NCBI RefSeq assembly: GCF_900105385.1
Contig: NZ_LT629772.1
Span: 2,604,001 to 2,668,000, forward strand
Direction of reading: 5' to 3'
DNA length: 64,000 nucleotides
Source of the DNA: Microlunatus soli
Lineage (GTDB): Bacteria > Actinomycetota > Actinomycetes > Propionibacteriales > Propionibacteriaceae
In this document: positions 22,817 to 44,430 of the stretch, piece by piece
How the letters are laid out: each line of letters starts with the position of its first letter
Numbering within the stretch: the first letter of the stretch is position 1
Made by a program: the position numbers and the translations under genes
Notes under the pieces: model-generated
Told to the model about the DNA's origin: nothing
Database searches by the model: none
The model's input: only the letters and a program-made list of their open reading frames with translations

Positions 22817-24187
22817 ATGGTTGAGCAGGATCCGGATCGGCGTTCCGGGGACGTCGAACACGACGAATCGGTCCGTCGACAAGCTCAGGACCCGGAACCG
22901 GCACCCTCCGCGACGCGTTCGACGGTTGCCCGGCGGGGGCTGTTGGCAGCCGGTGTCGGGGTGGCCGGCGTCGGAGTCGGACTGGCCGGCGGCACCGCGT
23001 GGGCTGCCAGCCGGGACGGCTCGGATGACCAGCCACCGCCGGGGAGCCGCAGCTACCCGTTCTACGGCAGCCATCAGGCAGGGATCGTCACGCCGGCTCA
23101 GGACCGGCTGCACTTCGCGACGTTCGATGTCAGCACCACATCCCGTTCGGAGTTGACCGCACTGCTGCAGGCGTGGACGCAGGCCGCGGCACGGATGACG
23201 ACCGGCCACGGTGCCGGCAGCATCGGACCGACCTCCGGTGACTACGACGCTCCGCCCGACGACACCGGTGAGGCGATCGGCCTGCCGGCGTCGGGACTGA
23301 CGATCACGTTCGGCTTCGGACCGTCGCTGTTCCGCGATGATCATGGCCGGGACCGGTTCGGTATCGACGACCGGCGACCGGTTGCCCTGCAACGACTGCC
23401 GCACTTCCCCGGTGATCAACTCGTGCCTGCGCAGAGCGACGGCGACCTGTGCATCCAGGCCTGCGCCGATGACCCGCAGGTCGCCGTGCACGCGATCCGC
23501 AACCTGGCCCGGATCGGCTTCGGCACGGTGGCGCTGCGCTGGTCGCAACTCGGATTCGGCCGGACCTCCTCGACCAGCACCGGGCAGAGCACCCCGCGCA
23601 ACCTGTTCGGCTTCAAGGACGGCACCGCCAATCTCAAGGCCGAGCATCGCGTCGACGTCGATGAGCATGTCTGGGTCCGCCGCGGGGCCGATCATCGGGC
23701 GGACTGGCTGACCGGGGGGTCGTACCTGATCACCCGCAAGATCAACATGAGCGTCGAGACCTGGGATCGGCAATCCCTGCGGGAGCAGGAGGCCGTGATC
23801 GGCCGGACCAAGGCCGAGGGGGCGCCGCTGTCCGGCGGAACGGAATTCAGCGCTCCCGATTTCGCCGTCAAAGGGCGGGGCGATCAGCCACTGATCGCGA
23901 CCGACTCACACGTCCGGATCGCCCATCCGAGCCAGAACAACGGTGCCCAGATGCTGCGTCGCGGCTACAACTTCTTCGACGGCAGCAATGGGCTCGGACG
24001 GATGGATGCCGGGCTGTTCTTCATGGCCTACGTCACCGACCCCCGAACCCACTACATCCCGATCCAGAACAAGGTCTCCCGGGACGCGATGGCCGAATAC
24101 CTGCTGCACACCGGATCGGCGATCTTCGCGGTGCCACCCGGCGTCCCGAAGGGCGGCTACGTCGGCCAGGACCTCTTCGAATCCTGA
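22817..24187 (+). CDS. efeB: Tat-exported dye-decolourising peroxidase EfeB
   Basis: 456 residues. The twin-arginine signal (RR at 39-40, followed by GLLAAGVGVAGVG) directs folded export with haem. The Dyp signature GFKDGT (265-270) supplies the catalytic Asp, and SHVRIAHPSQNN carries the proximal haem His. EfeB oxidises ferrous iron or removes iron from haem for the EfeUO system. The cytoplasmic N-terminus before the signal is long for a Tat peptide and contains a degenerate copy of the CTGAGC repeat (22872-22890) that encodes VRRQAQD. Confidence 0.93.
   Translation: MVEQDPDRRSGDVEHDESVRRQAQDPEPAPSATRSTVARRGLLAAGVGVAGVGVGLAGGTAWAASRDGSDDQPPPGSRSYPFYGSHQAGIVTPAQDRLHFATFDVSTTSRSELTALLQAWTQAAARMTTGHGAGSIGPTSGDYDAPPDDTGEAIGLPASGLTITFGFGPSLFRDDHGRDRFGIDDRRPVALQRLPHFPGDQLVPAQSDGDLCIQACADDPQVAVHAIRNLARIGFGTVALRWSQLGFGRTSSTSTGQSTPRNLFGFKDGTANLKAEHRVDVDEHVWVRRGADHRADWLTGGSYLITRKINMSVETWDRQSLREQEAVIGRTKAEGAPLSGGTEFSAPDFAVKGRGDQPLIATDSHVRIAHPSQNNGAQMLRRGYNFFDGSNGLGRMDAGLFFMAYVTDPRTHYIPIQNKVSRDAMAEYLLHTGSAIFAVPPGVPKGGYVGQDLFES
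22872..22890 (-). repeat. degenerate CTGAGC-type repeat inside efeB
   Basis: TCCGTCGACAAGCTCAGGA matches the inverted form of the dispersed repeat (compare GCCCTTCGACAAAGCTCAGG at 10826) with a few changes. It lies in the part of efeB that codes for the variable region before the Tat motif. Confidence 0.55.
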
Positions 24188-28520: not shown

Positions 28521-30230
28521 TCAGAACAGGCCGACGGTGTTGCCGCCCTCGTCGATGTCGATGTGGGCGGCTGCGGGATCGGAGCCGAGCCCGGGCATGG
28601 TCTGCATCTGACCGCAGATCGGATAGATGAAGCCGGCGCCGACCGACGCCCGGACCTCACGGACCGGCAGCCGCCAGCCGATCGGTGCGCCGCGCAGTGT
28701 CGGGTCGGAGGACAGCGAAAGGTGCGTCTTGGCCATGCAGATCGGCAGCCCGCCCCAACCGAACCTGGTGTAGCGCTGCAAGGACTTGGTGGCGTCGGCC
28801 GAGTAGTCGACTCCGTCGGCCCCGTAGACCCGGGTCGCGATGGTCTCGATCTTCTTCCACAGATCGACCTCGGTCGAGTACAGGTAGCCGAAGTCGTTCG
28901 GTTCGGCGGCGGCCTCGGCGACGGCGTCGGCCAACTCGGCCGCGCCGGCACCGCCGTCGGTGAAATGGGTCGACACCGCGCAGCGGACCCCGGCCCGGGA
29001 GGCGATGTCGCGGATCGCGGCATGCTCGCTGGCATGATCATCTCCGAAGGCGTTGATCGCCACCACCGGTGTGACACCGTGCAGTTCGATGTTGTCGATC
29101 TGCTTGCGCAGGTTGTCCGCGCCGGCGTACACGTCGTCGGGGTTCTCGGCCAGCAGCTCTGCGGGTAGTGGTCGACCGGCCACCACCTTGTGGCGTCCGG
29201 AGTGCATCTTCAGCGCCCGGACCGTGGTGACCAGCACCGCCGCGTCCGGCGTGAGTCCGGAGACCCGGCACTTGAGGTTGAAGAACCGTTCGGCTCCCAT
29301 GTCGGCGCCGAACCCGGCCTCGGTGACCAGGAAGTCGCCGCCGTGGATCCCGATCAGATCGGCCACCACCGAGGAGTTCCCGGTGGCGATGTTGCCGAAC
29401 GGACCGCAGTGCACCAGCGCCGGTGTGTTCTCGTGGGTCTGCAAGAGATTGGGTTTCAGCGCGTCCCGCAGCAGGACCGTCATGGTGCCGGCTGCGTGCA
29501 GGTCCTCGGCCGTCACCGGGCGCGGCCGTGGACCCCGGGTGTAGCCGACCACGATGCGCCCGAGCCGATCACGAAGATCACGCAGCGATCGGGACAACGC
29601 CAGCGTCGCCATCACCTCCGAGGCCGCGGTGATGTCGAAGCCGGACTGTCGGGGTACGCCGTCGCCACGGCCACCGAGTCCGAGCACGATGTTGCGCAGC
29701 GACCGGTCGTCGACGTCCAGCACCCGACGCCAGGTGATCGCCGCCGGATCGAGGTCGAGATCGGAGGTGGTGGCCCGAAACACAGCGTTGTCGATCATGG
29801 CCGCCAACTGGTTGTGCGCGGCGGTGACGGCATGCATGTCGCCGGTGAGGTGCAGATTGAGCCGCTCCATCGGCAGCACCTGGCTGCGGCCACCGCCGGC
29901 ACCGCCGCCCTTGATCCCCAGTGTCGGGCCCAGCGACGGTTGCCGGATCGCGATCACCGCACGGCGGCCGGTGCGGTTCAGTCCCTGGCCGAGACCGATC
30001 GTGGTCGTGGTCTTACCCTCCCCCAGCGGGGTCGGTGTGACCGCACTGACCACGACGTACTTCGCCGTCGGACGATCCGCCAGCTCGTCGATGGCGGCAA
30101 GATCGATCTTGGCCACACCGGTGCCGTACGGGTCCAGCAGGTGCCGTCCCAGACCCATCATGTCCGCGACGTCCTCGATCGGTTTCAGGGTCGCCGCACG
30201 GGCGATCTGCAAGCTGGTGGTGGCTGTCAT
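28521..30230 (-). CDS. fhs: formate-tetrahydrofolate ligase
   Basis: 569 residues. The ATP-binding loop TPLGEGKTTTTIGL (residues about 67-80) is followed by RQPSLGPTLGIKGGGAGGG, THENTPALVHCGPFGNIATGNSS and FGWGGLPICMAKTHLS, all conserved in Fhs. The enzyme interconverts formate, ATP and THF with 10-formyl-THF; in catabolic settings it can run backwards to recover ATP. Its ATG overlaps the stop of the MetF-like gene (ATGA), so translation is coupled. The order GcvT-like, MetF-like, Fhs recalls ligM-metF-ligH of Sphingobium. Confidence 0.94.
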   Translation of the reverse strand: MTATTSLQIARAATLKPIEDVADMMGLGRHLLDPYGTGVAKIDLAAIDELADRPTAKYVVVSAVTPTPLGEGKTTTTIGLGQGLNRTGRRAVIAIRQPSLGPTLGIKGGGAGGGRSQVLPMERLNLHLTGDMHAVTAAHNQLAAMIDNAVFRATTSDLDLDPAAITWRRVLDVDDRSLRNIVLGLGGRGDGVPRQSGFDITAASEVMATLALSRSLRDLRDRLGRIVVGYTRGPRPRPVTAEDLHAAGTMTVLLRDALKPNLLQTHENTPALVHCGPFGNIATGNSSVVADLIGIHGGDFLVTEAGFGADMGAERFFNLKCRVSGLTPDAAVLVTTVRALKMHSGRHKVVAGRPLPAELLAENPDDVYAGADNLRKQIDNIELHGVTPVVAINAFGDDHASEHAAIRDIASRAGVRCAVSTHFTDGGAGAAELADAVAEAAAEPNDFGYLYSTEVDLWKKIETIATRVYGADGVDYSADATKSLQRYTRFGWGGLPICMAKTHLSLSSDPTLRGAPIGWRLPVREVRASVGAGFIYPICGQMQTMPGLGSDPAAAHIDIDEGGNTVGLF

Positions 30231-31156
30231 GGTGGGTCAGCTCCGTTCTGCTGCAACATCTCGCGGCGCCACCGTTCGGCAGCTCGCAGCGCATTGAAGG
30301 TGTAGATGTGGACGCCGGTCAGTCCGTGGGACGGATCGGCGAAGGCCGGTTCGAGATCACCGAGCAGCCCGTCCGGCCGCCAGCTGCCGGGACGGGCCAC
30401 CCGGAGCAGACCGGTGTGATGACTGAGCAGCCGGGCTGACCCTCCGACACCGATCCGGCGGCCGATCCGCAGCAGCTTGGCGACGTCGGCGGGACCGGCC
30501 ACACCGATCAGGATCGGCAGCTGCACGCCGCGGCGGCGTACTCGTCGGATCCAGGACGTCAGCAGCTTGGGATCGAAACACAGTTGGCTGACGATGTAGG
30601 ACGCCTCCCGGCGTTTGTCCCACATCGCCTGGATGGTCAGGTCGTCGGCGATCCGCGGATGGGGCTCGGGATAGCCGGCGATTCCGATCGTGAACCGGTG
30701 ACCGATGGTCCGCATCGCCGACAGCAGGTCCAGGGCGCTACCGAACTCGCCGACCGGTTCGGTCGGATCGCCGCCGATCACGAACACCTCGTCGATCCCG
30801 GCGTCCTCGAGATCACCGATGATTCGGCGCAGGACGGACGTATCGGGGATCAACCGGGCCGACAGATGCGGCACCGCATGGACGCCGCGGCCGGCCAGTC
30901 CGATCGCCAGATCGACCGTGGCAGTGATGCCCTGCCGTGGCGAGGCCGTCACGGTCACCGTTGCGTCGGTGGGCAGCTCGGTGATCACCTGTGCCTCGAC
31001 CCCCGGTGTCGGCAGTACCTCGAACCGCGGCCGACTCAGGACGCTCTGCAGCGCCGGGTGCCGAGGCTGCCGCCGCGCGATACCGGACGGTCGTGTCCGA
31101 CGACGGCGAGGGCGGTCGGCGACCTCACCCACCACCGTCGGACCGCTGCGTTCCAT
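30227..31156 (-). CDS. methylenetetrahydrofolate reductase-like protein (MetF family)
   Basis: 309 residues from ATG 31156, chosen because GAGGGCGG precedes it. The barrel is MTHFR-like: AVPHLSARLIPDTSVLRRII, VFVIGGDPTEPVGEF and IVSQLCFDPKLLTSW are the folate/FAD site segments. Family enzymes interconvert 5-methyl- and 5,10-methylene-THF. Here it sits between a methyl-transferring GcvT-like protein and Fhs, so oxidation of 5-methyl-THF formed by demethylation is likelier than methionine supply (inference). The N-terminal 45 residues are Arg- and Pro-rich and poorly conserved. Confidence 0.8.
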   Translation of the reverse strand: MERSGPTVVGEVADRPRRRRTRPSGIARRQPRHPALQSVLSRPRFEVLPTPGVEAQVITELPTDATVTVTASPRQGITATVDLAIGLAGRGVHAVPHLSARLIPDTSVLRRIIGDLEDAGIDEVFVIGGDPTEPVGEFGSALDLLSAMRTIGHRFTIGIAGYPEPHPRIADDLTIQAMWDKRREASYIVSQLCFDPKLLTSWIRRVRRRGVQLPILIGVAGPADVAKLLRIGRRIGVGGSARLLSHHTGLLRVARPGSWRPDGLLGDLEPAFADPSHGLTGVHIYTFNALRAAERWRREMLQQNGADPP

Positions 31157-31187
31157 CAGGCCGCCCTCGATGATGATCTTGTACGGG

Positions 31188-32402
31188 CTATTGGACCGGC
31201 TGCGCGGCTGCCGTCGCGGCCAACCCGCCGACATCGGTCTTGGGCTGATATTTGCGCGGATCGACGAACGGCTTCTCGACCACGACGGCCGGAACCTTGG
31301 CCCCGTCGATCTCGATCTCCAACTCGGTGCCGAGTCGGGTCAACTCCACCGGCAACATCGCATAGCCGATATTGCTCTCCAACCGGGGCGAGTAGCAGGC
31401 CGAGGTGACGTGCCCGACCTGTTCCTCGTTGCGATAGCAGGGCAGCAGATCGATCATCGTGCCGTCCACATAGCTGCCCAGCCGCGGACCGGCGATCCGG
31501 ACGCCGGCCAGCCGGCGCGTCGGACCTTGATCCTTGATCGTCTGCAACGCCTGTTTGCCGATGAAGTCGGCCTGTTGATCAAGGTCGACCATCCAGTCGT
31601 AGCCCATCCCGACCTCGAACGGGTTGGTGTCGAAGGTGATGTCGGATCCGTGGGCCAGGATGCCGGCCTCGATCCGCCGGATGTGGCTCGGACCGATCAC
31701 CTTCATCCCGTGCGCCTGGCCGGCCTGCCAGACCAGATCCCATAGCTGCAAGGCATCACGGCTGGCGTTCTTGACGTAGATCTCGTAGCCGACCTCGGCG
31801 GTGTAGCCGGTCCGGGAGACCACCAGGTCCATCCCGTCGTGGGTGAACTCGCGCAGGTAGTAGTAGCCGATGTCCAGCACGTCCTCGCCGAAGACGTCCC
31901 GCATCACCTGCCAGGACTTGGGCCCCTGGATCTGGACCGGGCCGACGTCCGCCTCCTGGATCGACACGTCGTACCCGGAGTTGTACGCGACGCCGCGTGC
32001 CCAGAGCAGGATGTCGCTGTCGGCCAGTGACAGCCAGAAGTGGTTCTCGCCCAGCCGCAGCAGTACCGGATCGTTGAGGATGTTGCCGTGCTGGTCGCAG
32101 AGGAAGACGTACTTGCACTGCCGTACCCGGCATTTTCGGAGGTCGCGGGTGACCAGCAGGTTGGTGAAATCGAACGCGTCCGGACCGGTGATCTCGATCT
32201 GCCGCTCGACGCCGACGTCCCAGAGTGTGACGCCGTTCAGGAGTTCCCAGTATTCGGCGACCGGATCGCCGTAGTGCCGGGGATGGTAGGTGTGGTTGTA
32301 GACGCTGTACATCGCTACCCCGTGCCGCCGTGAGGCGTAGAAGAACGGGGACTTCCGGATCCGCGGGTAGAGCAGGATCTCCGGATTCGGGTTCTCGGGC
32401 AT
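31188..32402 (-). CDS. GcvT-fold THF-dependent methyltransferase/demethylase (DmdA-like)
   Basis: 404 residues from ATG 32402, preceded by GGAGG at six bases. The start MYSVYNHTYHPRHYGDPVAEYW and WDVGVERQIEITGPDAFDFTN resemble dimethylsulfoniopropionate demethylase DmdA and its relatives, with the GcvT domain followed by a C-terminal GCV_T_C domain. The motif SRTGYTAEVGYEIYV is the folate-site signature. These proteins move a methyl or methylene group from a substrate to THF. Operon partners MetF-like and Fhs fit a demethylase. The substrate may be DMSP, a betaine, a methoxy compound or a methylamine. Confidence 0.8.
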   Translation of the reverse strand: MPENPNPEILLYPRIRKSPFFYASRRHGVAMYSVYNHTYHPRHYGDPVAEYWELLNGVTLWDVGVERQIEITGPDAFDFTNLLVTRDLRKCRVRQCKYVFLCDQHGNILNDPVLLRLGENHFWLSLADSDILLWARGVAYNSGYDVSIQEADVGPVQIQGPKSWQVMRDVFGEDVLDIGYYYLREFTHDGMDLVVSRTGYTAEVGYEIYVKNASRDALQLWDLVWQAGQAHGMKVIGPSHIRRIEAGILAHGSDITFDTNPFEVGMGYDWMVDLDQQADFIGKQALQTIKDQGPTRRLAGVRIAGPRLGSYVDGTMIDLLPCYRNEEQVGHVTSACYSPRLESNIGYAMLPVELTRLGTELEIEIDGAKVPAVVVEKPFVDPRKYQPKTDVGGLAATAAAQPVQ

Positions 32403-32465
32403 CGTTGCCTCCAAAGTACTGCCGAAACGGCGTCCTTCAGCCGTACGTCCGGGGTACCACGCTGC

Positions 32466-32497
32466 TGCGCATAACGCAATAGGCTGCGTAATACGCA
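32466..32497. promoter_or_regulatory. twin palindromes in the gcvT-like/iclR promoter
   Basis: TGCGCATAACGCA (32466-32478) and TGCGTAATACGCA (32485-32497) are two related palindromic sites with TGCG/CGCA ends, 19 bases centre to centre. They sit between divergent genes and are likely sites for the IclR regulator. Confidence 0.65.
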
Positions 32498-32549
32498 ACA
32501 CGCTCCGTGGCGCAGTGCTGTCGACCTGTCGGCCGTTAGCCTTGTCTGT

Positions 32550-33377
32550 GTGGGAGATTCAGCGGATTCCGGTCGGTCCGGGACGAGTCGCGGCGCCGAC
32601 GCATCCGGCGCAGTGCAGTCGGTCGACCGCGCGGTCCGAGTGTTGGAGATCCTGGCCCGCGACGGCGAAGCCGGGGTGACCGAGATCGCTCGCGAGCTGG
32701 GCGTACACACCTCCACCGCATCCCGGCTGATCCGGGCGCTTGCTGATCATGACCTGGTGGACCGTCCGGGAGGCAACGGACGGGCCCGGCTCGGCATCGG
32801 ATTGCTCCGGTTGGCGGGCGCCACTGCCGCACAACTCGACCTCAGCACCCAGGCACAGCAGGTCTGTGATGATCTTGCTGCCGAGCTCGGTGAGACCGTC
32901 AACGTGGCGATCCTCAGCGGTGGTGTGGCGCTGAACATCTGTCAGGCTCAGGGATCGAGCACGGTGTCGACCCAGAACTGGGTCGGTCAACGGACCGTGC
33001 TGCACGCCACCTCGAGCGGCAAGGTGCTGTTGGCCTACCTGGACGCCGGCGAACGCAACACGTTGCTGCGCCGTTCGCTGGAACGCTTCACCCGGCACAC
33101 ACTCACGTCGGCCCGTGCGATCCGTACGGCCTTGAAGGCGGTCCGGGAGAGCGGCTGGGCCCAGTCGATCGAGGAGTACGAGGAGGGACTGAACGCGATC
33201 GCCGCACCGATCCGCACCCACGACGGCACGGTGATCGCCGCGATCAGCATCGCCGGCCCCGCATACCGACTCGGCGCCGAACAGCTGCCCGACCTCGCTA
33301 CCGCCGTGATTGCCGCCGCCGAGCAGGTCTCCCACCGGATGGGCTACAGTCCCGCCGCCCCCAGGGCCAATTCGTAA
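32550..33377 (+). CDS. IclR-family transcriptional regulator
   Basis: 275 residues from GTG 32550. The N-terminal winged helix reads VDRAVRVLEILARDGEAGVTEIARELGVHTSTASRLIRALADHDLV, and the C-terminal GAF-like effector domain contains the IclR signature around EYEEGLNAIAAPIRTHDGTVIAAISIAGPA. It is divergent from the GcvT-like/MetF/Fhs operon and probably controls it through the twin TGCG palindromes. The effector may be the methylated substrate or a product of its breakdown. The N-terminal 20 residues are low in complexity. Confidence 0.88.
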   Translation: MGDSADSGRSGTSRGADASGAVQSVDRAVRVLEILARDGEAGVTEIARELGVHTSTASRLIRALADHDLVDRPGGNGRARLGIGLLRLAGATAAQLDLSTQAQQVCDDLAAELGETVNVAILSGGVALNICQAQGSSTVSTQNWVGQRTVLHATSSGKVLLAYLDAGERNTLLRRSLERFTRHTLTSARAIRTALKAVRESGWAQSIEEYEEGLNAIAAPIRTHDGTVIAAISIAGPAYRLGAEQLPDLATAVIAAAEQVSHRMGYSPAAPRANS

Positions 33378-33623
33378 CATCGGGTACGAAATCGCCCATC
33401 GCGACTGCCCCACCGGGGGACTGTTTTCAGCACGTGTTGCCACATCGTCCTCGCGATGGGGATCCGTCCCCTGGGGGCACATCCCAGCACGTGTTGCCAT
33501 ATCGCCCGCTGAACGCGAGCTGGTGGGGACTTTTCGCAGCAGGTGATACGAAACGTCCGCAAAGGGGTCGGCCCGGTGCTGAAGGGGGACGGGCGTCGGA
33601 GCCCTGATCGCGAGCCCGGACGG
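33378..33623. repeat. cluster of CACGTGTTGCC repeats between iclR and the cyclodeaminase gene
   Basis: Two clear copies of a motif CACGTGTTGCCAYATCGYCC lie at 33428-33450 and 33485-33507, and more diverged ones at about 33373-33397 and 33536-33559. They are interspersed with G-rich and C-rich blocks that can pair. No gene is seen. The motif belongs to the same family as copies near 17188, 17395 and 37807. Confidence 0.7.
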
Positions 33624-34178
33624 TCAGTCGGCGTCGGCGTTGGAGCGCTGGATCTCGTGCACGATGGCGCGGGCGGATTCGGCCAGCCGGACGGCGGCGA
33701 CCGCGTCAGCCCGGAGCCGCGGATTCCCTTGCACCGCAAGGTGCTTGGCGAGGTCGGCGAGTTCGGCCGCCAGTTCACCGATCTCCTCCGGTACGACGAC
33801 GGCAGCGTCCCGGGCGCCGGACTCGGTGCCGGCACCGCCGGCGGCGGACGCACCAGCGTCGACCTCCGGGCCCCGGCCGGTGATCATCGCGACGACCGCG
33901 GCAGCGTCGGCATCGGCCAATTCGACAGCCCGTTCACGAAGCCGATCGGCACGCTCGGCCAAGCCCTCGGCGTCGGCAAGCTGACGATGCGACAACCGCG
34001 CGACCTTGCCGGTCAGCGCCGCCGCCAGCCCCGCGGCCAGCGCCGCCGCCGATCCGGCGGCCGGGCCAGGGCGACGATCGGCCATCCGGGCCAGCAGCTC
34101 GCCGACCGCCGACGTCGCGATGCCGGAATCCGCCCTGCTCGGATCCGCCCCGTGCTGGCCGGTCGTGTTCATGCCCAT
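33624..34178 (-). CDS. formiminotransferase-cyclodeaminase domain protein (FTCD_C; cyclodeaminase or FchA-type cyclohydrolase)
   Basis: 184 residues, all-helical, with the family start RRPGPAAGSAAALAAGLAAALTGKVARLS that binds the folate, and a helical bundle after it. Stand-alone members act as formimino-THF cyclodeaminase or, as FchA in Methylobacterium and clostridia, as methenyl-THF cyclohydrolase. With Fhs and MetF-like in the same block, the cyclohydrolase role would fill the methenyl to 10-formyl step. The start is uncertain: ATG 34178 or 34172. It follows the dehydrogenase gene by a few bases on the same strand, so the two are one operon. Confidence 0.8.
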   Translation of the reverse strand: MGMNTTGQHGADPSRADSGIATSAVGELLARMADRRPGPAAGSAAALAAGLAAALTGKVARLSHRQLADAEGLAERADRLRERAVELADADAAAVVAMITGRGPEVDAGASAAGGAGTESGARDAAVVVPEEIGELAAELADLAKHLAVQGNPRLRADAVAAVRLAESARAIVHEIQRSNADAD

Positions 34179-34185
34179 CACATGA

Positions 34186-36867
34186 TCAACTCTTGACTCG
34201 CTTGTTGTCCGGATCGAACGGCGCCACATGACCGCGGGTGAGCACCGTGACCGGGTAATGGGTCCCGAAATACTCCACCAGCAGTCGGGTGCCCTCCGCG
34301 GCGTAGTCGGGCGGCAGGTAGGCCATCAGCAGATAGCGACCCAGTGACGGCGCCGGCCCGGCAGTGGTCACGAACGATCGGCGACCCTTGGCGTCGACGA
34401 TCGGTTCACCGGCGCCGGTCAGCACCGGCTCGTTGCCGGTCATGAACCGCGGTTGCTCGCCGTCGGCCCGATGATCATCGACGACCAGGGTGCACAGCAC
34501 CGCAGCCGGCGTACCGTCGCGGGCCGCCAGGTAGGCCTGTTTGCCGACGAAGTCGTGTCCCTTCACCTTCGGCAGCGCGAGGCCGGCCTCGACGGCGTCG
34601 TACTCACCGGTCAGCTCGGCGCCCATCAGTCGATGGGCCTTCTCGATCCGGCCGGTCGTTCCGTAGACACCGATGCCGGCGGCGAGCACGCCGAGGCTCT
34701 GCCCGGCCTCCCAGAGCTGGTCCCAGAGCCGCAGCCCCTGCTCGGTGGGCACGTGGATCTCCCAGCCGAGGTCGCCGACATAGGAGATCCGCAACAGCAA
34801 CGCCGGTACGCCGCCCAGCACCACCTCGCGAGCGGTGCCGAAGCCGAAGCCCTCGTCGCTGACATCGTCGGAGGTGATCGAGGAGACCAGGTCACGGGCC
34901 CGCGGACCCCACAGACCGATGGTGGCGTAGGCCGACGTCACGTCGACCAACTGCACCGAACCGTCGGCCGGCAGCCGGCTCGTGAACCAGGCCAGATCGC
35001 GACTGCCGTCGGCGCCGCCGGTGATCACCCGGAAGTGCTGTTCGCCGAGTCGGACGATGGTCAGGTCGGCGCGGAAGCCACCGTCCGGCCCGAGCAGCGG
35101 GGTGTAGACGACCCGGCCGACCGGCCGATCCAGTTGGGCCATCGCCATCGTCTGGATGTAGTCCAGCGCACCGGGTCCGACGCATTCGAAGATCGCAAAG
35201 GCGCTCAGATCGATCATCGCCACCCGGTCCCGCATCGCCAGATGCTCGGCCTCGATGATCGGTGACCACCACCGCGCGTCCCACTCCACCGGCTGTTCCT
35301 GGATCTGATCGGCGTACTCGTCGACCAGGCCGGCGTTGGCTTCGTACCACTGCGGACGCTCCCAGCCGCCGGCCTCGAAGAAGGTGGCGCCGAGCTCGAC
35401 CTCGCGGGGATGGAACGGGCTGGTCCGGACCGGGCGGTCACTGAGCCACTGTTCGCGCGGATGGGTTATGCCGTAGATCTTTCCGAAGCCCTCGGCAGCC
35501 CGGGCACGAACATGACCGCGGGCGCGCGCGTACGGATAGAAGCGGGCGATGTCGGCGCCGTGCAGGTCGTACTCGGTGCTGCCCGTGGTCATCCACTGCG
35601 CGACCATCCGGGCTGCACCGGCGGCCTCCTTGATCCAGACCGCGGCTGCGGACCAGAGCCCGCCGACCTCGGGTGATTCGCCGAGCAGTGGGCCACCGTC
35701 CGGGGTGAGCGACAACAGGCCGTTGATCGCCAGTTGGGTCTGTACGCCGGGCTGGTCCAGCAACGCTCCGAACAGTTCCTTGGCCGCACGCAGCTGCGGT
35801 TCGAAGTCGCCGGCGGTGAACGGGAAGCGGGTCGGCGACTGCTGCCCGGGGGCACCGACCGGCGGGATCTCGGCTGGGTCGTGCAGGATCGGCCGATGCG
35901 CGTACGAGCCGACCTCGAGATCGGCGCCGCGCTGCCGTTCGTACATCAGATTGTCCATGTCGCGGACCAGCGGGAAGCTGATCCAGCTGTCGGTCTGCGC
36001 CAGTTGCGGGATCGGGCCGAGGTCCATCATCTGGTGCACCGCCGGCGTCAGCGGGATGTGTGCGCCGGCCAGCGCCGCGATCTTGGGACTCCAGACACCG
36101 CAGGCGATCACCACCTGTTCGGTCTCGATGTCCCCACGATCGGTACGGACCCTGGTGACCCGTGGCCGACCGGCCGAGCCCGGGCTGACGTCGATCCCGA
36201 CCACTTCGGTCCGGTCATGGCTGGTGAGCGCGCCGCGAGCCTCGGCGCGCTCCCGCATCAGGGTCGCGGCGGCGAGCGGATCGACGATCGCGCCGTCCGG
36301 GGTGTGGAAGCCGATCCGCAACAGGTCGGTGTCGCAATACGGCACCAGTTCGCTGATCCGACCGGGGCCGATCAGTTCGGCATCCACTCCCCAGGCGTGG
36401 GCCGACGTCATCCGGCGCTGCAACTCGACGGCACGCTGTTCGCTGCGCGCGACCTCGATGCCGCCGCAGGTGGTCAGCACCCCGAGCTCGGCATACTGCC
36501 GCATCGAGTCCGTGGTCAGAGCGGTGATCTCCTGGGAGTGATCGACCGGGAAGATGAAGTTGGAGGCGTGCCCGGTGGAACCGCCCGGGTCCGGCAACGG
36601 ACCCTTCTCCAGCAGCACGATGTTGCGCCAGCCGAGATCGGCCAGGTGGCGGCCCAGACAGCTGCCGACGATCCCGGCGCCGATGATCACGACGTCGGCG
36701 GTGGTCGGCAGCCCGGTCGCTGCCCCTGTCGCGGCCGTCGTTGTTCCCGGCGGACCCGGCGGTGTCGCTGTTCGGCCCCTTGTCGTCGTATCCGTTGTCG
36801 TCGAGCCCGTCGCTGTCGAACCCGTCGCCGACCCCGTCTGGATCGCGCCGTTCGTCACGTCCGCCAT
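34186..36867 (-). CDS. dimethylglycine/sarcosine dehydrogenase-like flavoprotein fused to GcvT domains
   Basis: 893 residues from ATG 36867 (GGAGG five bases upstream). After a Thr/Gly-rich, apparently disordered N-terminus (residues about 7-55), a DAO-type FAD domain starts with VVIIGAGIVGS and carries GGSTGHAS, with H100 at the position that binds FAD covalently in dimethylglycine dehydrogenase. A middle FAO_M-like region is followed by GCV_T and GCV_T_C domains (from about 500; RISYVGDLGWEIHVP is the signature). The enzyme should oxidise an N-methyl group and pass it to THF as methylene-THF. It begins the cyclodeaminase operon and is divergent from a GntR gene. The substrate is not fixed: dimethylglycine, sarcosine or another methylamine. 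Confidence 0.85.
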   Translation of the reverse strand: MADVTNGAIQTGSATGSTATGSTTTDTTTRGRTATPPGPPGTTTAATGAATGLPTTADVVIIGAGIVGSCLGRHLADLGWRNIVLLEKGPLPDPGGSTGHASNFIFPVDHSQEITALTTDSMRQYAELGVLTTCGGIEVARSEQRAVELQRRMTSAHAWGVDAELIGPGRISELVPYCDTDLLRIGFHTPDGAIVDPLAAATLMRERAEARGALTSHDRTEVVGIDVSPGSAGRPRVTRVRTDRGDIETEQVVIACGVWSPKIAALAGAHIPLTPAVHQMMDLGPIPQLAQTDSWISFPLVRDMDNLMYERQRGADLEVGSYAHRPILHDPAEIPPVGAPGQQSPTRFPFTAGDFEPQLRAAKELFGALLDQPGVQTQLAINGLLSLTPDGGPLLGESPEVGGLWSAAAVWIKEAAGAARMVAQWMTTGSTEYDLHGADIARFYPYARARGHVRARAAEGFGKIYGITHPREQWLSDRPVRTSPFHPREVELGATFFEAGGWERPQWYEANAGLVDEYADQIQEQPVEWDARWWSPIIEAEHLAMRDRVAMIDLSAFAIFECVGPGALDYIQTMAMAQLDRPVGRVVYTPLLGPDGGFRADLTIVRLGEQHFRVITGGADGSRDLAWFTSRLPADGSVQLVDVTSAYATIGLWGPRARDLVSSITSDDVSDEGFGFGTAREVVLGGVPALLLRISYVGDLGWEIHVPTEQGLRLWDQLWEAGQSLGVLAAGIGVYGTTGRIEKAHRLMGAELTGEYDAVEAGLALPKVKGHDFVGKQAYLAARDGTPAAVLCTLVVDDHRADGEQPRFMTGNEPVLTGAGEPIVDAKGRRSFVTTAGPAPSLGRYLLMAYLPPDYAAEGTRLLVEYFGTHYPVTVLTRGHVAPFDPDNKRVKS

Positions 36868-36911
36868 GAGAACCTCCGGAACGCTGCCACGCCGGTGTGG
36901 CCGAGGGAAGC

Positions 36912-36932
36912 TGATATCTTGAAGATATATCA
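36912..36932. promoter_or_regulatory. GntR-type operator between the dehydrogenase and gntR genes
   Basis: The core ATATCTT-G-AAGATAT (36914-36928) is a perfect palindrome around one base and extends to TGATAT/ATATCA at 36912-36932. This A+T-rich block stands out in the region and lies next to the starts of both divergent genes, as expected for an FCD-type GntR operator. Confidence 0.65.
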
Positions 36933-36949
36933 GGATCGGAGAATTGACC

Positions 36950-37702
36950 ATGGGTGGTGTTCGCCGGGCGCCGACCGGCCCGAGAGCCCGCTATGCCTTC
37001 GCGGCAACCGGCACGGAGCTGGCCGACGATCCGCTGGCGGAGCTCACCGTCCTGGTGCCACCGCACGTCCACGCCGACTCTCATGCGGCGGTCGCCTACT
37101 ACCTGATCCGCGATCTGGTGGTCACTCTCGAGCTCGCGCCGGGGTCACCGCTGAACGAGCGCATCCTGATGGAACGACTCAACCTCGGCAGGACGCCGGT
37201 CCGGGAGGCGCTGCGCCGACTCGCCGACGAGGGACTGGTGGCGATCTTCCCTCGACGAGGGATGGTGGTCGCGCCGATCCATGTCCACGATCTGAGCAGC
37301 ATCTCCGAGGTCCGGATCGAGCTCGAAGGACTGGCCGCCGGGCTGGCCGCGCGGCGTCGTACTGCGGATGACCGCCGGGTGGCTGCCGACCTGCTGGAAC
37401 GGCTTGCAGTCGGTGTCGATCCGTCCGACCCACGGGGGTTGATCCGGCTCGACCAGCAGGTGCACCATCTGGTCCACCGAGCCACCCACAACGATTACCT
37501 GCAGAACACCCTGGCCGAATACCTCGCACTCAGCCTGCGACTGTGGTTCCTCGGCCTCGAGCGAGTGCACCGACTCGACCAGGCCGTCGGAGAGCACCGC
37601 GACCTCCTGACCGCGATCACCGCCGGCGACGCCGACATCGCAGCCGCCACCGCCCGCGCGCACGTCACCGCCTTCTGGCAGCAGATCACCCAGGTCCTCT
37701 GA
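36950..37702 (+). CDS. GntR-family regulator (FadR/FCD subfamily)
   Basis: 250 residues from ATG 36950, with GGAGAA seven bases upstream. The winged helix reads ELAPGSPLNERILMERLNLGRTPVREALRRLADEGLVAIFPRRG, the GntR consensus, followed by an all-helical FCD domain with metal/ligand His residues (DQQVHHLVHRATHNDYL). It is divergent from the dehydrogenase operon and most likely represses it and itself at the ATATCTT palindrome until its inducer arrives. The N-terminal 40 residues before the helix-turn-helix are extra. Confidence 0.88.
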   Translation: MGGVRRAPTGPRARYAFAATGTELADDPLAELTVLVPPHVHADSHAAVAYYLIRDLVVTLELAPGSPLNERILMERLNLGRTPVREALRRLADEGLVAIFPRRGMVVAPIHVHDLSSISEVRIELEGLAAGLAARRRTADDRRVAADLLERLAVGVDPSDPRGLIRLDQQVHHLVHRATHNDYLQNTLAEYLALSLRLWFLGLERVHRLDQAVGEHRDLLTAITAGDADIAAATARAHVTAFWQQITQVL

Positions 37703-37927: not shown

Positions 37928-37938
37928 TGAGGTTGGTG

Positions 37939-38021
37939 TGCGCGAGGAGGGATTTGAACCCTCACACCCTTTCGGGCACTGGCACCTGAAGCCAGCGCGT
38001 CTGCCGTTCCGCCACTCGCGC
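37939..38021 (-). tRNA. tRNA-Leu (anticodon CAG)
   Basis: Read on the minus strand, the acceptor arm is GCGCGAG paired with CTCGCGC, discriminator A, with no encoded CCA. The anticodon arm CTGGC-TTCAGGT-GCCAG gives anticodon CAG. A long variable arm (TGCCCGAAAGGGTG) and the T arm GAGGG-TTCAAAT-CCCTC are clear. Length is 83 bases, fitting a class II tRNA. It lies next to fhaA, as leuT does in Mycobacterium tuberculosis. Confidence 0.95.
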
Positions 38022-42988: not shown

Positions 42989-44430
42989 ACAAACCGATCC
43001 GGCGCGCGACCATCCTGGTGATGGCGCTGTTCGCGCTGCTGTTCGCCAACGGCACGTTCATCATGGTCTTCCAGCAGAGCTCGTTGAACGCCAACACCCT
43101 CAATCGGCGGGTCCGGGACGAGGACTTCGCGCAGAACCGCGGCTCGATCCTGGCCGGCGACATCCCGATCGCCTACAGCGAGCCGACCAATGATCGCTTC
43201 AAGTACCAGCGCAAGTACTCCAACGGTGCGCTGTACGCACCGATCACCGGCTTCTTCTCCTACGACCACGCCACCACCGCCCTGGAGAACTCCTACAACG
43301 GCGAACTGGCCGGCACCGACGACAGCCTGTTCGTGCGACGGATGGTCGACATGGTCAGCAACCAGGCCCCGCAGGGCGCAAGCGTGCAGACCACGATCGA
43401 CCCGGACGTACAGAAGGCCGCAGCCGATGCGCTGGGTGACCAGAAGGGTGCCGCGGTCGCGTTGGATCCCAAGACCGGCGCCGTGCTGGGGATGGTGACC
43501 AGCCCGAGTTACGACCCGAACAAGATCGCCGATCATGATGTCAGCGCCGCCAACAAGGCCTACCAGAAGGCGGCGACCGACAAACGCAACCCGATGAGCA
43601 ACCGGGCGGCCCGGGAGATCTACCCGCCGGGATCGACGTTCAAGCTGGTCACTGCCGCGGCCGCACTGCAGAAGGGTCTGACCCCGGACAGCAAGGTCGA
43701 GTCCCCGAACCGACTGCTGCTGCCGGGTACGTCGACCTATCTGAAGAACGAGAACGGGATGTCCTGCGGTGGTGACAAGATCACCCTGACCCATGCGCTG
43801 GAGGTGTCCTGCAACACCGCCTTCGCCAATGTCGGTCTCGATGTCGGCTCCGACGCCTTGCGTGAGCAGGCGGTCAAGTTCGGTTTCGACTCGCGGCATC
43901 TGGACGACGTCGGCGGTGTGGCCAGCAGATTCCCCGACGAGTTGAACGAGTCCCAACTGGCGTTGTCGTCGATCGGTCAGTACGACGTCGCCGCCAGCCC
44001 GCTGCAGATGGCGATGGTGTCGGCCGGGATCGCCAACCAGGGCAAGGTGATGGAGCCGTACCTGGTCTCTTCGGTGCGGTCGCCGGACCTGCAGGTGCTC
44101 TCCCGGACCAAGCCCAAGGAGGTCGGCCAGGCGATGACCGCGGAGAACGCCGACGCCCTGAAGCAGATGATGGTCGATGTCGTCGACAACGGCACCGGTA
44201 CGCCGGCCAAGATCCAGGGGATGGGGGTCGGCGGCAAGACCGGGACCGCGCAGTCGGACCCGAACCGCAAGCCCTTCGCCTGGTTCACCGCACTGGCCCC
44301 GGCCGACGATCCGCAGATCGCGGTCGCGGTGATGGTCGAGGACGCCGACATCCCCCGGGCCGACATCGCCGGTGGCCGGCTCGCCGCCCCGATCGCGAAG
44401 GCGATGATCCAGGCGGCGGTGAAGCAATGA
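42985..44430 (+). CDS. pbpA: class B penicillin-binding protein PbpA
   Basis: 481 residues. One N-terminal membrane anchor (ATILVMALFALLFANGTFIMVF) is followed by a PBP dimer domain and the transpeptidase domain with STFK (217-220), SCN (275-277) and KTGT (418-421). It cross-links peptidoglycan and acts with RodA. Its ATG overlaps the rodA stop. Size and order match mycobacterial PbpA. The kinase follows after about 120 bases. Confidence 0.93.
   Translation: MNKPIRRATILVMALFALLFANGTFIMVFQQSSLNANTLNRRVRDEDFAQNRGSILAGDIPIAYSEPTNDRFKYQRKYSNGALYAPITGFFSYDHATTALENSYNGELAGTDDSLFVRRMVDMVSNQAPQGASVQTTIDPDVQKAAADALGDQKGAAVALDPKTGAVLGMVTSPSYDPNKIADHDVSAANKAYQKAATDKRNPMSNRAAREIYPPGSTFKLVTAAAALQKGLTPDSKVESPNRLLLPGTSTYLKNENGMSCGGDKITLTHALEVSCNTAFANVGLDVGSDALREQAVKFGFDSRHLDDVGGVASRFPDELNESQLALSSIGQYDVAASPLQMAMVSAGIANQGKVMEPYLVSSVRSPDLQVLSRTKPKEVGQAMTAENADALKQMMVDVVDNGTGTPAKIQGMGVGGKTGTAQSDPNRKPFAWFTALAPADDPQIAVAVMVEDADIPRADIAGGRLAAPIAKAMIQAAVKQ

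Follow-up and report, generated by a model that had tools for sequence, protein, structure and literature searches.

Glycine betaine is a widespread osmolyte and nutrient. PMC12478193 lists three routes for the removal of its first methyl group in aerobes: a Rieske monooxygenase, BHMT, and the cobalamin-dependent MtgBCD. Other methylated compounds are demethylated onto tetrahydrofolate (THF) by DmdA of P. ubique and by the LigM-MetF-LigH system of Sphingobium SYK-6, in which a T-protein-derived demethylase shares one operon with a methylenetetrahydrofolate reductase (MTHFR) reported to run in reverse and with LigH, which we take to be Fhs. Here, we analyzed 64,000 nucleotides of Microlunatus soli (contig NZ_LT629772.1, positions 2,604,001 to 2,668,000; "the window"), in which positions 28521 to 37702 hold a seven-gene cluster built around a GcvT-like methyltransferase. 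The cluster is probably a variant of the THF-linked demethylation known from DmdA and LigM with a new substrate; we do not claim a new fold or a new kind of enzyme. We slightly favor the reading that it breaks down glycine betaine and oxidizes the methyl groups for energy. The features are as follows.

28521..30230, minus strand: fhs, formate-THF ligase, 569 aa (NF010030 761.3 bits, PF01268)
30227..31156, minus strand: metF-like gene, S6MTHFR-type methylene-THF reductase, 309 aa from the ATG at 31156
31188..32402, minus strand: GcvT-like methyltransferase of the DmdA superclade, 404 aa (GCV_T 143 bits; DmdA 3tfh 250 bits; tree)
32466..32497, no strand: tandem palindromic operator, TGCGCATAACGCA-6 bp-TGCGTAATACGCA, proposed IclR site (sequence pattern)
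32550..33377, plus strand: IclR-family regulator (IclR_C 149 bits, HTH_IclR 51 bits)
33624..34181, minus strand: FTCD_C-domain protein, 184-185 aa, possible but divergent cyclohydrolase (PF04961 59 bits)
34186..36867, minus strand: flavoprotein of the dimethylglycine oxidase/dehydrogenase type fused to GCV_T, 893 aa (Pfam; match to DMGO 1pj5)
36914..36928, no strand: perfect palindrome ATATCTTCAAGATAT between the flavoprotein and GntR genes, possible GntR site
36944..37702, plus strand: GntR/FCD-family regulator (GntR 59 bits, FCD 87 bits)
37938-38021: tRNA-Leu (cag), immediately past the GntR gene

The seven genes lie where the original prediction placed them, and every expected domain in their products scored above the Pfam curated cutoff. 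The GcvT-like protein contains GCV_T and GCV_T_C (75 bits) domains. Among solved structures it matched DmdA better than trimethylamine N-oxide demethylase (154 bits) or GcvT (146 bits), and its best NCBIfam model was also DmdA (NF009133), with 335.2 bits against an equivalog cutoff of 410. Its scores were under the cutoffs for GcvT (TIGR00528, 138.2 of 235.85 bits), LigM (NF047885, 42.4 of 580 bits), and DesA (NF047633, 61.7 of 800 bits). In a tree of 83 rows, made by a quick method with some long branches and with support from the Shimodaira-Hasegawa-like approximate likelihood ratio test (SH-aLRT) only, the protein fell with DmdA inside a strongly separated superclade, away from the GcvT rows, and it and DmdA occupied different starred clades. 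The tree drew on 83 of the 115 proteins extracted, a set that excludes 27 of 34 Halomonas rows, three duplicates (L162, L163, and L131), and two partial rows (L048 and L059); the partial L094 and L095 did not enter the extraction. Forcing the protein together with 10 DmdA rows, a group picked after the tree had been seen, was rejected by the approximately unbiased (AU) test (p-AU 2.6e-62). The motif RSG[YW]S[KR]QGG, a signature derived in this analysis and not taken from print, was present in 11 of 11 DmdA rows and in none of the 83 rows of the window protein's group. The reverse was seen for P.HIRRIE, found in 66 of these 83 rows and in 0 of the 11 DmdA rows. The 83 motif rows differ from the 83 tree rows: they are all extracted proteins minus the DmdA, sister-group, 45%, GcvT, and odd rows, and among them are L162, L163, and L131, from genomes that other rows already represent. 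We dropped the "key DMSP residue W171" (PMC7487153) as a marker for dimethylsulfoniopropionate (DMSP) demethylases: the DmdA rows listed show Tyr at the assumed position, and the numbering was unconfirmed.

These comparisons place the GcvT-like protein in the DmdA superclade and make it unlikely to be DmdA proper. We rejected a plain glycine-cleavage T protein on the TIGR00528 score and the tree position; another GcvT-type gene is present elsewhere in the genome. The grouping with plain GcvT that the original prediction had set as its refutation was not what the tree gave. DmdA proper was rejected on the score under the cutoff, the tree, the AU test, and the absent signature, and LigM on its score. 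DmdA and the GcvT-like protein thus share the GCV_T family and the superclade, and DmdA's redox-neutral methyl transfer to THF serves as our working model, whereas the two proteins are about 35 to 37% identical and have different neighbors.

The partner of the methyltransferase is the 893-aa flavoprotein, in which Pfam found DAO, FAO_M, GCV_T, and GCV_T_C, the architecture of DMGO and DMGDH. It matched Arthrobacter globiformis DMGO (1pj5) with 540 bits over residues 55 to 876. In this alignment, read by eye, the residues at DMGO His48, His225, Tyr259, and Asp552, presumably the catalytic positions, are identical in the window protein; entry 3gsi differs at position 552 in the same output. Judged by these residues and domains, the flavoprotein is of the dimethylglycine oxidase/dehydrogenase type, with dimethylglycine as the predicted substrate. 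It has the same domains and catalytic positions as A. globiformis DMGO and mitochondrial DMGDH but, unlike them, it partners a methyltransferase.

The remaining enzymes deal with one-carbon oxidation. The metF-like protein scored 61 bits with Pfam MTHFR and 63 bits with canonical MetF (TIGR00676), under the cutoff of 293.7, and its closest solved relative is the LigM-linked SYK-6 enzyme (S6MTHFR), which supports the likeness to ligM-metF-ligH proposed earlier. The SYK-6 enzyme is reported to work in reverse after LigM (PMC12585457); according to the same paper, Yu et al. 2025 described comparable sets of genes from numerous further bacteria. By analogy, the metF-like protein would oxidize 5-methyl-THF. 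The genome encodes a second MetF (298 bits). Fhs reached 779 bits with Pfam FTHFS, its NF010030 score is over the cutoff of 652, and no other gene of the genome matched PF01268 at E 0.001. The FolD said to be missing lies elsewhere in the genome (PF02882, 191.7 bits, G000:C1:6593859). The FchA-type cyclohydrolase of the original prediction did not hold up: the FTCD_C protein is far under the FchA equivalog cutoff (NF045657, 33.1 of 275 bits), and its sole match among solved structures is FchA 7vg4 at E 9.6e-4. The cluster thus resembles the SYK-6 system in its operon, whereas LigM itself is far from the GcvT-like protein and the window adds an N-methyl-oxidizing flavoprotein and IclR and GntR regulators.

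We propose the following route. The GcvT-like protein would transfer a methyl group from glycine betaine to THF, yielding dimethylglycine and 5-methyl-THF in a DmdA-like reaction. The flavoprotein-GcvT fusion would convert dimethylglycine to sarcosine and pass the carbon to THF as 5,10-methylene-THF. The S6MTHFR-type MetF would turn 5-methyl-THF into methylene-THF, FolD from outside the cluster, perhaps aided by the FTCD_C protein, would produce 10-formyl-THF, and Fhs in reverse would release formate and ATP. If this is right, the net first step would be that of GbcAB (Rieske), BHMT, and MtgBCD, with the difference that the methyl group would go straight to THF without oxygen, homocysteine, or cobalamin. 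A THF demethylation module that pairs a redox-neutral DmdA-type enzyme with an oxidative N-methyl demethylase, as first suggested from the window, is supported by these results.

We next turn to relatives of the cluster. A scan of named bacterial genomes yielded 69 loci in other species that encode a relative of the GcvT-like protein, in most cases 63 to 75% identical (L094 60%, L095 47%); some of these loci span just 4 to 8 kb, and the partner counts depend on tblastn score limits. The carriers include Brachybacterium, Nesterenkonia, Microbacterium, Thermocrispum, Nocardioides insulae, many Halomonadaceae including Halomonas, several assembled actinobacterial genomes, and one acidobacterial genome. 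A DMGO-type flavoprotein was found in 57 of the 69 loci, MetF in 51, and Fhs in 50. A flavoprotein or SoxA was present in 59, and 66 loci had one or more of flavoprotein, SoxA, MetF, and Fhs. This co-occurrence exceeds chance, and the lack of conserved clustering that would have spoken against the module was not observed. Microbacterium sp. MPKO10 (L029) has all seven genes in identical order. Seventeen further loci overlap the 69 by at least one (L131 with L047). The GcvT-like protein is rare near home: 7 of 196 genomes of the window's taxonomic order matched it at 1e-40 (own included), with one genome besides its own at 1e-90 (45% identity), and in the class 16 of 394 genomes matched at 1e-70 (own included). 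Because the spread is patchy and identity to the halomonad proteins is 63 to 66%, gene transfer is suggested.

The neighbors in relatives point to the substrate. In L130, whose GcvT-like protein is 71% identical, we found a dimethylglycine oxidase with 962 bits to A. globiformis 1pj5, MetV/MetF, and, behind the oxidase, a SoxA-type gene (1032 bits, under the cutoff of 1164). L144 combines the GcvT-like gene with IclR, SoxB (534 bits, cutoff 529), SoxD (91 bits, cutoff 116.5), and SoxA (844 bits, cutoff 1164); at L047 and L052 its companions are Fhs, SoxA, and serine dehydratase. Three Pseudomonadota loci (L190-L192) hold a 45% identical GcvT-like gene together with MetF, Fhs, GbdR-like, serine dehydratase, and flavoprotein genes. 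Of the 35 Halomonadaceae loci, 33 have a GbdR-like gene, identified by similarity to that of L066; the L066 gene, the only one scanned with NCBIfam, scored 441 bits, under the cutoff of 480. In Pseudomonas, glycine betaine catabolism includes serine dehydratase, sarcosine oxidase, and GbdR, and glycine betaine and dimethylglycine induce GbdR (PMC12093977). Glycine betaine is favored because these conserved partners (DMGO-type, SoxA, serine dehydratase, GbdR-like) point there. Thus, of the "betaine or DMSP-like" substrate proposed at the outset, the betaine half is favored; the DMSP half is unlikely, given the failed DmdA tests and the absence of DmdB-like genes from all 69 named loci. The partner flavoproteins of three contexts (window, Halomonas L066, and L130) are 34 to 42% alike and their GcvT-like neighbors 64 to 71%, so the pairing probably formed more than once. 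On Haloarcula marismortui plasmid pHMA411 (L198), a 43% relative has neighbors that encode dihydrofolate reductase, MetF, FAD oxidoreductase, and Rieske proteins, which could make this an archaeal betaine locus. Near the GcvT-like gene of 10 of the 17 further loci is an EtfB-like gene, so dehydrogenase use is possible there. Putrescine-type genes beside the Halomonas clusters (three loci scanned) were set aside as an unrelated neighbor pathway.

Regulation gave a second line of comparison. Between the IclR and GcvT-like genes lie two palindromes of the type TGCGYANTRCGCA, 19 bp apart (32466-32497). We wrote an operator pattern from the window, L036, L038, L039, and L043, and those five support it by construction. 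With up to two mismatches it matched 17 of 20 IclR-GcvT intergenic stretches, including 12 of the 15 not used for writing it, and it was 41 times denser there (24 matches in 4,447 bases) than outside (52 in 391,700). Taken singly, the palindrome is not rare: the window has three matches at one mismatch, one of them at 43227, against 0.52 expected, a number reached by 1 of 100 shuffles. The tandem pattern (up to two mismatches) occurs at a single place in the 6.73-Mb genome and is present in 10 of the 12 genomes searched, with no match in the L028 and L029 genomes. When coordinates were compared, the best tandem match in the other nine positive genomes lay at their own cluster; the search also gave four further two-mismatch places away from clusters, and a backwards control gave two matches. 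The tandem palindrome fits a dedicated operator at which the IclR protein would act ahead of the GcvT-like gene. Besides the window itself, 37 of 107 loci searched carry an IclR gene like that of the window, instead of or as well as the GbdR-like gene of the Halomonadaceae clusters, which sets these loci apart from GbdR-regulated catabolism in Pseudomonas. A GntR gene was found in 9 of the 107 loci, some just 35 to 48% identical, and the FTCD_C gene was seen in one relative, L029, with none detected by tblastn at 1e-4 in the 107 loci; both genes therefore look peripheral to the cluster. Of the two regulators first assigned to the cluster, IclR is thus supported by the operator and GntR is not. 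The ATATCTTCAAGATAT palindrome had no counterpart in L028, L029, and L031, whose GntR genes are the closest among the relatives, and we base no claim on it.

We then asked how well glycine betaine accounts for the genomes that carry the cluster. The searches for alternative routes covered Rieske and MttB/MtgB proteins. No Rieske alpha subunit was found at 1e-15 in 10 of 15 named non-Halomonas cluster genomes, which favors the cluster as their route, and MttB/MtgB-family proteins were absent at 1e-10 from all 15. Several observations weigh against this reading. The M. soli genome itself has a GbcAB-type Rieske pair (GbcA 425 of 670 bits, GbcB 319 of 500 bits; L127 8401-12850, G000:C1 about 4559900-4564350), which adjoins an OYE-type flavoenzyme gene and, by eye, a LysR-type gene, and which may be a second betaine or N-methylproline system. 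On the Halomonas side, 14 of 15 cluster genomes hold a Rieske alpha subunit, and 4 of 5 scanned pass the GbcA cutoff, which would make the cluster in these genomes either redundant or a system for another substrate. Tetrameric sarcosine oxidase alpha was absent at 1e-150 (18 candidates per genome scored) from the M. soli genome and from 10 of the 15 non-Halomonas genomes, and 9 of the 10 genomes without a Rieske match also gave no match to the tetrameric enzyme, which leaves the last methyl group without an assured enzyme. An N-methyltryptophan-oxidase-type protein is encoded in the M. soli genome (445 bits, cutoff 257), and this family could oxidize sarcosine. A search with one BCCT query detected no transporter in the window and none next to the named clusters; its two matches, in L183 and L194, belong to other lineages. 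The substrate also seems to vary within the superclade, because remoter members adjoin acyl-CoA synthetase genes: this is so for the sister group L182, L183, and L199 (Phaeobacter inhibens plasmid) and for L142, about 50 to 58% identical, with enoyl-CoA hydratase genes at L182, L199, and L142 as well (recognized by eye at L182 and L142). Three of the synthetases were scanned, and all scored under the 3-(methylthio)propionyl-CoA ligase cutoff. This context suggests sulfonium or other substrates, possibly for another group of sulfonium demethylases.

The lack of a sarcosine enzyme bears most directly on our main rival, the same chemistry on a betaine with two N-methyl groups, above all proline betaine (stachydrine), which would go through N-methylproline to proline. 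It requires no sarcosine step and suits the exactly two demethylases of the window. With the tetrameric enzyme missing as described, and monomeric sarcosine oxidase over its cutoff in 0 of 20 genomes, a two-methyl betaine stays in play. We nonetheless consider it unlikely, as relatives elsewhere sit with SoxA or SoxBDA, serine dehydratase, GbdR-like genes, and an Arthrobacter-like dimethylglycine oxidase, the window flavoprotein retains the DMGO catalytic positions (by eye), and no proline gene was recognized beside the clusters, where most neighbors were unscanned. Less probable still is a broad-range enzyme, or one for another methylated compound such as a different quaternary ammonium, with glycine betaine as a side substrate; it would explain why Halomonas genomes carry both the cluster and glycine betaine monooxygenase genes and why contexts vary across the superclade, but not the recurring dimethylglycine, sarcosine, and GbdR-like context. 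That the GcvT-like protein is a DMSP demethylase in an unusual place is improbable even though DmdA is its best solved relative and best NCBIfam model and shares its superclade apart from GcvT: the score is under the cutoff, joining the DmdA rows was rejected, the signature is missing from its group, DmdB-like genes are missing from the named loci, and the dimethylglycine-type partner would have no evident use. To an aryl-O-demethylase module like LigM-MetF-LigH we give almost no credence; the gene order and MetF type match, but the LigM and DesA scores are a small part of their cutoffs and the partner is of an amine-oxidizing flavoprotein type.

Details of the gene calls bear on the operons. 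The stop codon of the metF-like gene and the start codon of fhs share an ATGA, bearing out the coupling proposed within the GcvT-like/MetF/Fhs operon. The metF-like open reading frame as called encodes 335 aa; its true start is probably the ATG at 31156, 31 bases past the GcvT-like stop and preceded by a purine-rich stretch. The FTCD_C protein would have 201 aa if started at 34229; its start is probably GTG 34181 or ATG 34178, a few bases past the flavoprotein stop (34188-34186). The GC content of the cluster bins (66.8 to 69.5%) and of the near surroundings (66.0 to 68.2%) gives no sign of foreign origin. The cluster, rare in this order, may have landed at the tRNA-Leu gene behind the GntR gene. 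At 22817-24187 the window encodes a protein that by eye has a Tat-signal-like N terminus and a DyP/EfeB-type peroxidase look. Farther away, Phaeobacter sp. G2 plasmid CP104104.1 (L200) carries a 41% relative near the arsenic genes ACR3 and ArsJ and near a gene of the trimethylamine methyltransferase family, where an organoarsenic or methylamine role is conceivable. More distant GcvT-family matches occur in 87 Rhizobium plasmid records, some of the listed rows under a feature named DUF1989, and such plasmid matches in Rhizobium, Thioclava, and Paracoccus are about 32 to 34% identical among the matches listed.

We found no description of a THF-dependent GcvT-family glycine betaine demethylase in the open-license literature, with most subscription papers outside this scope. 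We regard as evenly balanced the broader proposal of a fourth aerobic route, in which a DmdA-superclade enzyme would move the first methyl group of glycine betaine straight to THF, would have spread by gene transfer in actinobacteria, halomonads, and perhaps haloarchaea, and would fill a missing first step in actinobacteria. Arthrobacter Rue61a grows on glycine betaine with an "incomplete" gene pathway (PMC3534580). If the proposal is true, the GcvT-like gene would be a single-gene candidate for such gaps. The oxygen-free first step would conserve the methyl electrons and could give ATP via Fhs, and DmdA-type chemistry would span both sulfonium and ammonium substrates.

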